Origin: Bryobacter aggregatus MPL3
Lineage (GTDB): Bacteria; Acidobacteriota; Terriglobia; Bryobacterales; Bryobacteraceae
Assembly: GCF_000702445.1 (NCBI RefSeq)
Contig: NZ_JNIF01000003.1
Location: forward strand, 3,906,001-3,970,000
Length of the DNA: 64,000 nt
Direction: 5' to 3'
How positions within the stretch are numbered: position 1 is the first letter of the stretch; each line of letters opens with the position of its first letter. A program made the position numbers and the translations under genes. The notes beneath the pieces were generated by a model. The model saw only the letters and a program-made list of their open reading frames with translations. It was not told the origin of the DNA and searched no databases. Positions 25,022 to 28,051 of the stretch are shown here, in pieces.

Positions 25022-25837
25022 TTACTTCTTACGGCGAGCGTAAGCGAGACCTGCAAGACCCGTGCCAATCAGGGCATAGGTGCTGGGCTCGGGAACGGCG
25101 CCAGGACCACCGGTGCCGGAGGAAGAAGAGCTGCTACCGGAACCGAGACCCAATGCACGGAGGTTGTCGAAGAACACTTGGTCACCGCCCCAGCCGCTAG
25201 CAGAATCGGTTCCGTTGAAGGTAAACACGATCGAAGTGATGGCTGCGATTCCGTTCGTGTCGCCAGTGGTTGTGTAACCAATCTGTGCACCAGTATTGTT
25301 GCAATTGGTGCTGCAGGCGGCATTTTGCGGCAGCGTGGTCTGGTAGGAAGACCCACCCAAACCGTAAATGGTCATGGTGTTGAGCGTGGAGTTATTGCTG
25401 AAGTAGTCGATCAGGAAATCTGACACTCCACCGCCTCCAAAAGTGATGGTGATCGTGTGAACAAAGTTGTTCGGGTTGGATGTCACCGGATATGGATCGT
25501 TCGCCTGGCTAAAGGTACTGATGTAACGCCCGGTCAGCTGCGCTGCACCGCTACCTGCATAGTACGAGGACTGACCGCTCGAAAGGGAAGCCTGGTTTCC
25601 TTTATCGTAGGTGCCGCTCGAAGTACCAGCAGTGGTGATGGTGCCAGCATTGCTCCCTACTGTAAAGGGAATCGAGCTGAAAGCCCCCAGCGGAATCGCT
25701 CCAACTGTGCCTGAATCAAAGTCGATCAGCGTGACGCCTGATCCGCTCAGATTGCTATTAGCAGACGTGATTACGCCTGCGTAGGAGGCCGCAGAGACCC
25801 CAATCACCAGGCTAAGTGTAGTTAAAAAACGCTTCAT
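25022..25837 (-). CDS. PEP-CTERM sorting-domain protein
   Basis: This is a 271-residue secreted protein. It has an N-terminal signal peptide (MKRFLTTLSLVIGVSAASYA), a Ser/Gly/Thr-rich beta-strand body, a Ser/Gly linker, and a C-terminal PEP-CTERM signal: VPEPSTYALIGTGLAGLAYA followed by RRKK. PEP-CTERM proteins are recognised by exosortase and are associated with exopolysaccharide and biofilm matrix; no exosortase gene is in this window. The body has two cysteines (AACSTNC) that may pair. A strong ribosome binding site (GGAGG) precedes the ATG, a promoter lies about 50 bases upstream, and a terminator follows. Confidence 0.92.
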   Translation of the reverse strand: MKRFLTTLSLVIGVSAASYAGVITSANSNLSGSGVTLIDFDSGTVGAIPLGAFSSIPFTVGSNAGTITTAGTSSGTYDKGNQASLSSGQSSYYAGSGAAQLTGRYISTFSQANDPYPVTSNPNNFVHTITITFGGGGVSDFLIDYFSNNSTLNTMTIYGLGGSSYQTTLPQNAACSTNCNNTGAQIGYTTTGDTNGIAAITSIVFTFNGTDSASGWGGDQVFFDNLRALGLGSGSSSSSSGTGGPGAVPEPSTYALIGTGLAGLAYARRKK

Positions 25838-26040: not shown

Positions 26041-26440
26041 GTCCTTCTTCGGGCAATCGCTTCATTCCTTGTTTTTTCCAGGCATGGAGAGGAAAGTCCG
26101 GTCTCCGTAGGGCAGTGTGCCGGCTAACGGCCGGGCTGGATCGCTCAAAGCGATTTGGACGGAAAGTGCCACAGAAAATATACCGCATTCTTCGATTTCG
26201 GTCGGGGTTTGTAAGGGTGAAATGGTGCGGTAAGAGCGCACCGCGGGACGAGCAATCGTACCTGGCAGGGAAAACCCCACGCGGAGCAAGGCCAAATAGG
26301 GGAGCAGAGGCGGCCCGTCTCATTACGACTCCCGGGTAGGCTGCTGGAACGGCTTAGTAATAGGCCGTCTAGAGGAATGATTGCCGATTGGGGAGGCTTG
26401 CCTTCTCGATCACAGAAACCGGCTTATAGAAGTAAGGACG
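26041..26440 (+). ncRNA. rnpB: RNase P RNA, bacterial class A
   Basis: This is the catalytic RNA that removes 5' leaders from pre-tRNAs. The universally conserved core is visible: GAGGAAAGTCCGG at about 26089 (P4 5' strand and J3/4), GGAAAGTGCCACAGAAAAT, the AGGGTGAAATGGTGCGGTAAGAG block, and ACAGAAACCGGCTTAT at about 26412 (P4 3' strand). The ends were placed from the P1 pairing of GTCCTTCTTC (26041-26050) with GAAGTAAGGAC (26429-26439). A terminator hairpin follows within 10 bases. No protein-coding frame is credible here. Confidence 0.95.
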
Positions 26441-26448
26441 CAAATGAA

Positions 26449-26485
26449 AATCCCGCCAATCTGATCGAATCAGGTTGGCGGGATT
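26449..26485. terminator. Shared hairpin terminator of rnpB and the convergent small transcript
   Basis: A long stem pairs AATCCCGCCAA (26449-26459) with TTGGCGGGATT (26475-26485), with an inner CTGAT/ATCAG helix. On the minus strand the stem is followed by TTTTCATTTG, a usable U-tract. On the plus strand it is followed by CTACAAG, a weak one. It ends rnpB and also the minus-strand unit described next. Confidence 0.75.
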
Positions 26486-26572
26486 CTACAAGACCGTTAC
26501 GCGCGAAGCGACCGGGCCACATTCACAGCGGCTCCAAAGCACTGGGGAGCCGTCAGAATGACCGAAGCTGCG

Positions 26573-26626
26573 TCAGCAGTCGATCACCTCACGCAAGATC
26601 TCGTCTGAATTACAACCATTTAACAT
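26573..26626 (-). CDS. Possible 17-residue small protein
   Basis: This short frame starts at ATG 26626 and encodes MLNGCNSDEILREVIDC, ending in TGA. It lies 13 bases after the AGGAGG core of a 15-base extended Shine-Dalgarno sequence, which is longer than the usual 5-9 base spacing. The residues suggest an amphipathic helix with a cysteine near each end. Coding is uncertain: the same transcript could function purely as RNA. Confidence 0.3.
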   Translation of the reverse strand: MLNGCNSDEILREVIDC

Positions 26627-26662
26627 TTAGACTGGATCACCTCCTTCCTCAGTGATGTTTTG

Positions 26663-26691
26663 ATCATAGACCCGGCGGCGAGCGCCGTCAA
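26663..26691 (-). promoter_or_regulatory. Strong sigma-70 promoter of the small transcript
   Basis: On the minus strand, TTGACG (26691-26686) and TATGAT (26668-26663) have exactly 17 bases between them, each one mismatch from consensus. It faces away from the MFS gene and towards rnpB, with no annotated gene to serve other than the small unit at 26656-26449. The rest of 26695-26824 holds no recognised feature apart from a weak TTGTGG-N18-TATGGG on the plus strand. Confidence 0.65.
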
Positions 26692-26824: not shown

Positions 26825-28051
26825 GTGGTGGCTTCGCCTGCGACAGCTCCGATCCAGACCGAAGTGGCTCGTCCTCTTTACGGCAATACGAGCAGGCGCT
26901 CGTTTCTGGGCTTCTTTGTCATCGGAATCTTGATTTCCACCCCAGCAACTGCGCTGCTGGTTTGGGACTATCATTTCCAGCCTCCCTATCTCTCGATCGG
27001 GTTTCACTTCCTTAGCTATGCAGTGGGCGTACTCTGTGCACTGCGGCTCGGGAACTTTTGGCTGGCGATCTTAGGTGCGCATCGGGTGCTTGCTGCTGCT
27101 TTGTTGATCGCCTCAGTGGGGATGGCTTTACTCGAATACGCCTCTCCGCCGGCCTCGAGTGCTCTGCGGCACACCTCATTCGCACTGCTCGGACTCGCCC
27201 TGGGTGGCATCATTGCCTCCACCTTTCAGCTTATGCAGCGTCTTTATGAGCGCGATCCTGCTGCCACTGTGAATGTTGCCGGTGGCTTGATTGGGACAGG
27301 CGCCTTGGTGCCTGCATTGATGAGCGCCCTCGCCTATTCTTGGACTGCCTTCCAGGGTTTCTTTGGATTCCTTGCTCTTGCCCCTGCGGCAGCCGCTGCA
27401 TTCCTGCTCTCACAGAAGTCCACTGCCGAGCCGAGCCGTCTCGATCTTGGTTTTGTGGCGGCTCTACGTGAATTGCGGAGTCCGGTACACATTCTTTTTG
27501 CGGCGCTGCTGTTTTTTGAGACGGCGGCCGAACTCTCGGTGGCGCAATGGGCCGCACTGCACCTGGTGTTGCATGCCGGCATGAGCCCGTCGACTGCGCT
27601 GTACTTCCTCTCCTTCTATTTCCTTTCCCTTCTCGGGGGACGTTTTGCTGCGCAGGCGATGTTGCAGCGTTTTCCTCATCGCCGCTTGCTTCTGGCAAGT
27701 GCCGCGATGTCCTGGCTTGGGATTCTCATTCTCGGGAGTGCCAGCAACTTTCTAGGCGCAGGGCTTGGACTCGCCCTCTCGGCCTGTGGCTTCTCCTTTG
27801 TCTACCCGCTACTGGTGGAGCGCATTGGCAGCCGCTTCCGGGAATACCACTCGAGCATGTTCCACGGAATTTTCGGTTTGGGAATGATCGGTGGTTTTCT
27901 TGCCCCCACCGTCATCGCTTTTTGGGCTTCTCTGTCTGGGGAAACCTCGGCGATGACGGTACCACTGTGGTGCAGCTTGCTCGTCTTCCTGTTGCTGGTT
28001 CTACTTTGGATTGAGTCGAAGATTAGCGCGAGCCGGTTTCGTCAAGGCTGA
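26825..28051 (+). CDS. Major facilitator superfamily transporter
   Basis: This 408-residue integral membrane protein has about 12 hydrophobic helices in two halves (for example FVIGILISTPATALLVW, FALLGLALGGIIASTFQL, LLLASAAMSWLGILILG and FGLGMIGGFLAPTVIAFWA). The overall pattern resembles the sugar-permease side of MFS (FucP-like), but no substrate motif was recognised. The start is GTG at 26825, with GTG 26828 as alternative. It stands alone, 14 bases from the end of the convergent lipoprotein gene. Confidence 0.8.
   Translation: MVASPATAPIQTEVARPLYGNTSRRSFLGFFVIGILISTPATALLVWDYHFQPPYLSIGFHFLSYAVGVLCALRLGNFWLAILGAHRVLAAALLIASVGMALLEYASPPASSALRHTSFALLGLALGGIIASTFQLMQRLYERDPAATVNVAGGLIGTGALVPALMSALAYSWTAFQGFFGFLALAPAAAAAFLLSQKSTAEPSRLDLGFVAALRELRSPVHILFAALLFFETAAELSVAQWAALHLVLHAGMSPSTALYFLSFYFLSLLGGRFAAQAMLQRFPHRRLLLASAAMSWLGILILGSASNFLGAGLGLALSACGFSFVYPLLVERIGSRFREYHSSMFHGIFGLGMIGGFLAPTVIAFWASLSGETSAMTVPLWCSLLVFLLLVLLWIESKISASRFRQG

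Follow-up and report, generated by a model that had tools for sequence, protein, structure and literature searches.

The locus beside rnpB raises the question of whether the minus-strand DNA between a promoter-like sequence and the RNase P RNA gene encodes an RNA of its own, and, if it does, what an RNA carrying a long complement of the 16S rRNA 3' tail might do with the ribosome. The original prediction, made from the letters of the window alone (the window being the whole stretch of 64,000 nucleotides that was analyzed), had proposed a small minus-strand transcription unit there. Comparison with relatives bears this out, arguing that the unit at 26656-26449 is a real RNA that is conserved as a whole, with its promoter and a near-perfect 16S complement. 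As we now draw it, the candidate gene extends from a conserved 5' end at 26656 through the 3' hairpin to 26446, and not to 26449 as first drawn. The features discussed below are collected in Table 1.

Table 1. Positions in the window of the candidate RNA gene, its parts and its neighbor; f1 is the window's family.
Feature	Positions	Strand	Evidence
Promoter TTGACG-N17-TATGAT	26663..26691	-	10/12 consensus matches
RNA gene	26446..26656	-	conservation in relatives and predicted fold
CACUG, 5' arm of the pseudoknot	26650..26654	-	neighboring position covaries with the loop in f1 copies
SD1, AAGGAGGUGAUCCAG, complement of the 16S 3' tail	26632..26646	-	exact match to own 16S ends and duplex energy
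Mini-ORF, 17 codons and TGA, MLNGCNSDEILREVIDC	26573..26626	-	translation and frame conservation in copies
P1 helix, 5' strand, holding most of SD2	26581..26594	-	predicted fold and f1 covariation; corresponding helix in Actinomycetota
SD2, GAGGUGAUC, inside the last codons	26582..26590	-	conservation and 16S duplex energy
P3 hairpin GGCUCC/GGAGCC, loop with CAGUG (26544-26540), the pseudoknot partner	26530..26551	-	predicted fold and covariation
P1 helix, 3' strand, CGGUCGCUUCGCGC	26501..26514	-	predicted fold and f1 covariation
3' hairpin, then TTTT; probable intrinsic terminator	26446..26485	-	predicted fold; terminator scan empty
rnpB (RNase P RNA, class A), convergent neighbor	26041..26443	+	Rfam match, 269.7 bits

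The proposed promoter stood up well. Among the 129 copies from f1 with enough upstream sequence, 122 carry a promoter-like TTGAY-N15..19-(not A)(A/G)NNNT just upstream, compared with 0.4% of background positions, and in 108 of these 122 the -10 element ends 6 nt ahead of a conserved A. The start had been placed near 26656, and A26656 is indeed the point at which strong conservation sets in among relatives. At the other end the prediction of a strong hairpin with a T-run held in part: the predicted fold contains a hairpin of 13 + 5 bp, but only four T follow it and the terminator scan reported no site there. On the fold, this hairpin is a probable intrinsic terminator, possibly one common to the RNA gene and rnpB. 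The fold of the whole RNA, 3' hairpin included, is more stable than those of all 200 shuffles (z -4.0).

The 15-base complement of the 16S 3' end that had been noted near the start is exact. Both 16S genes found in the source genome end in GGCTGGATCACCTCCTTTCT, so that comparison with the genome's own 16S is in favor of the complement, and the 15-mer AAGGAGGTGATCCAG occurs three times in the 5.75-Mb assembly, at the two 16S 3' ends and at SD1. When the 16S tail was scanned against 63,980 windows, taken at every second base of either strand, the SD1 duplex, at -33.1 kcal/mol, was the strongest, and the best unrelated site reached -24.3 kcal/mol. The pairing spans the tail from CUGGAUC to CCUU in the window, and to CCUUUCU, with one G-U, in several relatives.

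To follow the RNA through Acidobacteriota we used BLAST, which found it in 15 of 61 genomes, the window's own included, and a covariance model (R1) made from 15 sequences, one of them from family f27. In f1, R1 matched in 184 of 200 sampled genomes (134 of the 140 of better quality) and in 71 of 76 genera, mostly once per genome, with two matches in eight of the genomes listed. Across the phylum it matched in 23 of 297 genomes, where two of its matches, L091 and L093, look false by eye. A second model (R2), which uses sequence only and covers the first 70 nt, was made from 61 copies of several phyla, none from the window's genus, and finds the window locus as the sole match in its own genome (E 2.9e-6). 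R2 matched in 55 of 247 genomes of the phylum, including 25 of family f8 and members of f24, f27, f45, f47, f53, f54, f60 and f76; the last two listed matches (f12, f15) are weak, and individual reading covered L342, L345, L347 and at most a minority of the others. No f8 genome stands among the 20 listed R2 misses, which give the nearest kin first and are followed by 172 more. A pattern search permitting three mismatches returned 29 places, comprising six copies of the RNA, six sites that were unrelated by eye and 17 that resemble 16S 3' ends. The check on conservation in relatives that went with the original prediction came out in its favor.

Some copies depart from the common form. Eight of the 11 f8 copies read from the phylum-wide R1 search (L084, L087, L088, L090, L094-L096 and L098) have one extra SD1 base, GGAGGATGRTCC or GGAGGTTGATCC, that breaks the 16S complement and may produce a bulge in the SD duplex. 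In L008, a copy in the window's genus (genome G004), the 5' end is enlarged by CAGTGAG-like repeats and SD1 is weakened to GGGGGTGGTCC.

The position beside rnpB holds within the window's genus, where rnpB adjoins the RNA gene in 8 of 8 genomes, but not outside it: for the nine nearest loci from other genera or families (L009-L015, L026 and L027), Rfam scans of the 1.5-kb flanks (just 0.3 kb on one side for L010) gave no rnpB. Among the loci checked, the adjacency is confined to the genus. As to other neighbors, a divergent gene that by eye resembles a membrane transporter lies upstream of the RNA both in L108 and in the window (26825-28051), and a short ORF downstream of the RNA in L108 resembles, again by eye, ribosomal protein L31. 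Elsewhere in the window, the protein predicted at 25022-25837 (-) has a C-terminal VPEPSTYALIGTGLAGLAYARRKK tail that by eye looks like a PEP-CTERM sorting signal.

It had also been suggested that the RNA might be an mRNA for a 17-residue protein, and we therefore read the mini-ORF in 130 f1 copies (L050-L079 and L220-L319), which are mostly the better-scoring R1 matches; the other 54 of the 184 f1 genomes, mostly weaker or unlisted matches, lie outside these counts. An in-frame ATG and an open body are present in all 130, with lengths of 12-22 codons. GAGGTG is present in 126, followed by a stop exactly 9 nt later in 126 of 126, and all three stop codons are used (TGA 66, TAA 47, TAG 13); the remaining four have GAGGTA (two copies), GAGGTC or GAGGTT, and are likewise in frame with the stop in place. 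The stop thus stands three codons after the second SD-like motif, GAGGT(G), in 130 of 130. Within the set of 126 the ATG lies 3-16 nt past the SD core in 123 copies and slightly farther in three more, and the other two frames are open in no copy and in two copies, respectively. Scanning GTDB species with a sequence pattern gave a comparable result: all 120 pattern loci had the ORF open in frame (starts ATG 68, TTG 39, GTG 13), against 0 and 23 for the other frames, noting that the pattern itself demanded T-R-R at the place of the stop, with TGG permitted yet never present.

The amino acids are another matter. In 48 nearest-neighbor pairs of f1 copies the substitutions in the ORF body fall on the three codon positions 56/53/56, and 22 of 88 single changes are synonymous (25% vs 21.6% expected, a count that excludes the ATG and the codons from one before GAG onward), so that there is no synonymous excess. 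The codon preceding EV (GAG) specifies Arg, Gln, Cys, Pro, Ser and others in f1, and the residues after EV differ as well (AAR, TEA, AVR, VTS). Since EV is retained through other Val codons in four f1 copies, the last residues of the peptide could have some role. Overall, the comparison points to selection on the frame of the mini-ORF with none visible on the peptide body, and since that body lacks amino-acid selection the product is probably something other than the peptide. The suggestion of a small mRNA stands as far as the frame is concerned, which is kept in every copy read, but finds no support in the body of the protein.

The GAGGTG ahead of the stop belongs to a second GAGGTGATC, at 26590-26582. 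In the RNA, 6 nt separate the end of its GAGGUG from the last sense codon, and its duplex with the 16S tail has an energy of -16.4 kcal/mol, a value as low being found in 235 of the 63,980 windows. Helix P1 joins this SD2 to the 3' part of the RNA. Over 129 distinct f1 copies P1 is 88.3% paired, with 86 doubly changed cells against a shuffle mean of 35 and maximum of 48 (300 shuffles), while slid versions attain at most 63% and 49 doubly changed cells. Distant copies retain P1 with new letters, for example GGUGGUGAC/GUCACCACC and GGUGGUGUC/GACACCACC (paired by eye). In 51 Actinomycetota P1 takes the form GGUGGCUGC/GCAGUCACC, with 98.3% of cells paired, and is accompanied by a helix H1, in which GUCC at the 3' end of SD1 pairs with GGAC ahead of SD2 (96.6% paired). 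The covariation score of P1 plus H1 in this set is higher than in any of the 500 shuffles or any slid version, and two of the five measures are unremarkable against shuffles (doubly changed pairs 26/500, pair types 193/500); such permutation counts overstate independence because sequences related by descent are counted as independent. The near-invariance of SD2 could arise from P1 alone or from a protein site.

A further conserved element was found in f1, where the 5' end, CACUG(A/G), is able to pair with a (U/C)CAGUG loop in a pseudoknot. CAGTG occurs 3' of the stop in 117 of the 130 f1 copies, and CAGT at the expected loop place in 125, five being without it. Position 8 of the pseudoknot pairs in 103 of these 125, a count that none of 10,000 permutations equaled, kinship being ignored. 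Where position 8 is G (13 copies) the partner is C in 12 and U in one; where it is A (112 copies) the partner is U in 90 and a non-pairing base in 22. Position 3 pairs in 118 of the 125 and fails in seven. The window has the five-base core of the pseudoknot only. The switch originally proposed, in which AUCAC in the leader pairs with the second GUGAU, is not conserved, as other genera carry GAGGUGGCC there; judged by covariation, the conserved elements are instead P1, formed by SD2 and the 3' part, and, in f1, the pseudoknot at the 5' end.

Two other structures were considered and set aside. A helix P2 pairing the stop codon (GCUAGC/GCUGGC, in Actinomycetota) was weakly supported at 77.9% paired, and a 5' hairpin given by RNAalifold barely varies, so it was not relied on. 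At or just before the 3' strand of P1, many copies from outside f1 (L080-L099, L021, L123, L146) have a segment like CAATCYCAACAG, GAATNCC in its Actinomycetota version, the 5' half of which has no obvious pairing partner; a contact with protein or ribosome is possible.

The GTDB pattern scan also took the RNA beyond Acidobacteriota. It returned at least 120 loci, and among the 80 listed with titles there are, besides Acidobacteriota, many Actinomycetota (Streptomyces, Mycobacterium, Nocardioides, Micromonospora and others), two records labeled Deltaproteobacteria, and one each labeled Nitrospirae, Spirochaetia, Zixibacteria and Sumerlaeota. Nine of 14 pattern loci, eight from Actinomycetota and one from Zixibacteria, reach the gathering score (45 bits) of the Rfam family Ms_IGR-5 (RF02471); the non-actinobacterial L123, L129, L160, L168 and L173 fall below it. 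The window copy gave no RF02471 match in the Rfam scan, and its genome had none at E<=1 (0/1); because the gathering score is not reached it is not a member of RF02471, and the Rfam scans of the window ruled out a known Rfam family for this copy, no family other than rnpB, 6S RNA included, exceeding gathering there. Elsewhere Rfam reported rnpB alone, in seven of the 14 loci first checked for the rnpB adjacency, and nothing in 17 further or repeated Acidobacteriota loci. RF02471 itself exceeded its cut-off in 0 of 30 further Acidobacteriota genomes and in none of 14 well-known control genomes. At lower scores, RF02471 and R1 coincide in place in nine of 19 Acidobacteriota genomes from outside f1 in which a copy was known by R1 or the three-mismatch pattern (E 8e-5 to 0.87), with 10 other RF02471 matches at E<=1 lying elsewhere or at non-comparable places; in f1 there was no coincidence in six genomes.

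R2 was used to gauge how common the class is. It matched in 88 of 227 genomes of Actinomycetota (the phylum of L124), where the 27 listed matches with E above 1e-4, some extending over just a part of the model, may be due to chance; in 4 of 297 genomes of the phylum of L129, where the three new ones read keep the arrangement; and in 6 of 217 of the phylum of L160, where all five new ones read are in frame. By these counts, therefore, two phyla commonly carry the class, which is rare or patchy in the two others sampled.

Ms_IGR-5 and the RNA of the window share the order of their parts, namely ACAC..RAAGGAGGTGRTCC, the mini-ORF, GAGGTG with 9 nt and a stop, and P1. They differ in that the 3' half of the window copy has diverged and that f1 adds the 5' pseudoknot, and the structure line of RF02471 in Rfam shows neither P1 nor H1 as drawn here. 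These data argue that the window RNA is a divergent homologue of Ms_IGR-5, linked to it via intermediates and not by a direct match. RNA-seq confirmed Ms_IGR-5 in Streptomyces lividans (PMC8079986); in S. avermitilis it matches a transcription unit (PMC8780764), and in M. smegmatis it overlaps an sRNA transcript (PMC10454040). It shows ribosome footprints in M. abscessus and M. smegmatis, although footprints on sRNAs can be RNP artefacts and such RNAs are described as being without clear evidence of translation (PMC4974804). In the open-licence literature searched we found no stated function for Ms_IGR-5, and against that literature two things look new: the occurrence of the class in Acidobacteriota and other phyla, and its anatomy of a mini-ORF with a fixed stop, two SDs, P1 and a pseudoknot.

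What might such an RNA do? In the sequences compared, promoter, SD1, frame and stop position are conserved and the peptide body is not, with SD2 lying in the covarying P1. The anatomy, with its wide conservation, 16S-tail complement and conserved frame, fits the ribosome-binding regulatory RNA that was one of the original suggestions. Our preferred reading, to which we assign a probability of roughly 0.55, is that the locus represents, in Acidobacteriota, a divergent branch of the class filed as Ms_IGR-5 and encodes a stand-alone ribosome-engaging RNA, a trap or sensor of free or terminating ribosomes and not an mRNA for a peptide. SD1, complementary to the single-stranded 16S tail, would load a 30S subunit; the ribosome would translate the disposable ORF of about 11-22 codons and terminate at the stop codon fixed in position relative to SD2. 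Since the ribosome reaches that stop inside or next to P1, translation would have to open P1. Once the stop codon occupies the A site, SD2 could re-pair with the 16S tail and may hold the terminating or post-termination ribosome, because GAGG, 8 nt and the last sense codon reproduce the geometry of an initiation complex. The freed 3' strand, anti-SD-like (U/C)CACC in most phyla, may then change partner, pairing partly with SD1 though more weakly than in P1, and so limit further loading. Loading, translation and holding in this order would make the RNA a ribosome trap or sensor. A more specific form of the proposal, which we advance tentatively, is that the product is the act of translation: selection keeps the frame and ignores the peptide body, which suggests translation itself as the signal, so that a full-tail SD would load one ribosome, the mini-ORF would be meaningless, and the second SD would park the ribosome at the stop, coupling termination or recycling to refolding in a sensor of free ribosomes or of termination.

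Several known systems resemble parts of this scheme. Like the RNA predicted here, tmRNA carries a short mRNA-like ORF and acts on ribosomes, but the window RNA has its own start codon and SD, and ARAGORN found no tmRNA or tRNA in the window. In leader peptides and uORFs it can be translation, and not its product, that matters, so that the frame is kept and the peptide is free; in contrast, no regulated downstream gene was found in the 27 loci compared, and the RNA is wired to its own 3' end. The frameshift site of prfB (RF2) places an SD-like sequence just upstream of a stop codon, where it acts on the working ribosome, whereas the spacing of SD2 and stop in window-type RNAs is that of initiation.

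The rival explanations differ in which of these features they leave unaccounted for. The one we take most seriously, while considering it rather improbable, is that the RNA is a trans-acting sRNA that base-pairs with mRNAs, ribosome loading and translation of the ORF controlling only its stability or timing. It would be in keeping with a stand-alone gene that has its own promoter and hairpin, with flanking ORFs that differ by eye among 27 loci, and with a loop and 3' parts as variable as targets would be; what is most conserved, however, is the 16S complement, SD2 and the position of the stop, and not a free seed. Binding of SD1 to the 16S tail might also serve some purpose without translation, such as antisense control of 16S 3'-end maturation, protection or quality control, or a sponge for 30S subunits. 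The extent of the pairing and its lead of 9 kcal/mol over any other site in the window speak for this, but it leaves the start codon, the frame and the stop in 130 of 130 copies with a neutral body unexplained, and we regard it as unlikely. Somewhat less likely still is an mRNA for a functional micropeptide ending in REVADC or similar: conservation of frame, start and stop, and of EV, would be expected of one, whereas a length that ranges over 11-22 codons, a body with no synonymous excess and variability on both sides of EV would not.

Little weight can be given to a leader peptide or attenuator acting on a downstream gene, even though the mini-ORF, the alternative pairing and the terminator-like hairpin follow the logic of one. 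The differing flanking ORFs make any cis role on a downstream gene unlikely: no common downstream gene was seen among the 27 loci (crude longest-ORF calling, neighbors compared by eye), of the 22 loci with a next ORF, 16 have it on the opposite strand, and in the window the next feature is the convergent rnpB; the attenuator reading was rejected on these grounds. Finally, the identity of the 15-mer site with the complement of the 16S tail might in itself have come from a chance match or a functionless fragment of 16S, which is very hard to reconcile with conservation of the whole unit across genomes; a 16S fragment was rejected, since by eye there is no 16S similarity past the 15-mer.

In two acidobacterial families nearly every sampled genome has the RNA, in about one copy each. 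If a ribosome-engaging RNA is the correct reading of the locus, Ms_IGR-5 would be offered a testable function, with Actinomycetota, Acidobacteriota and other phyla joined through it, and bacterial biology would gain an RNA that parks or senses ribosomes.
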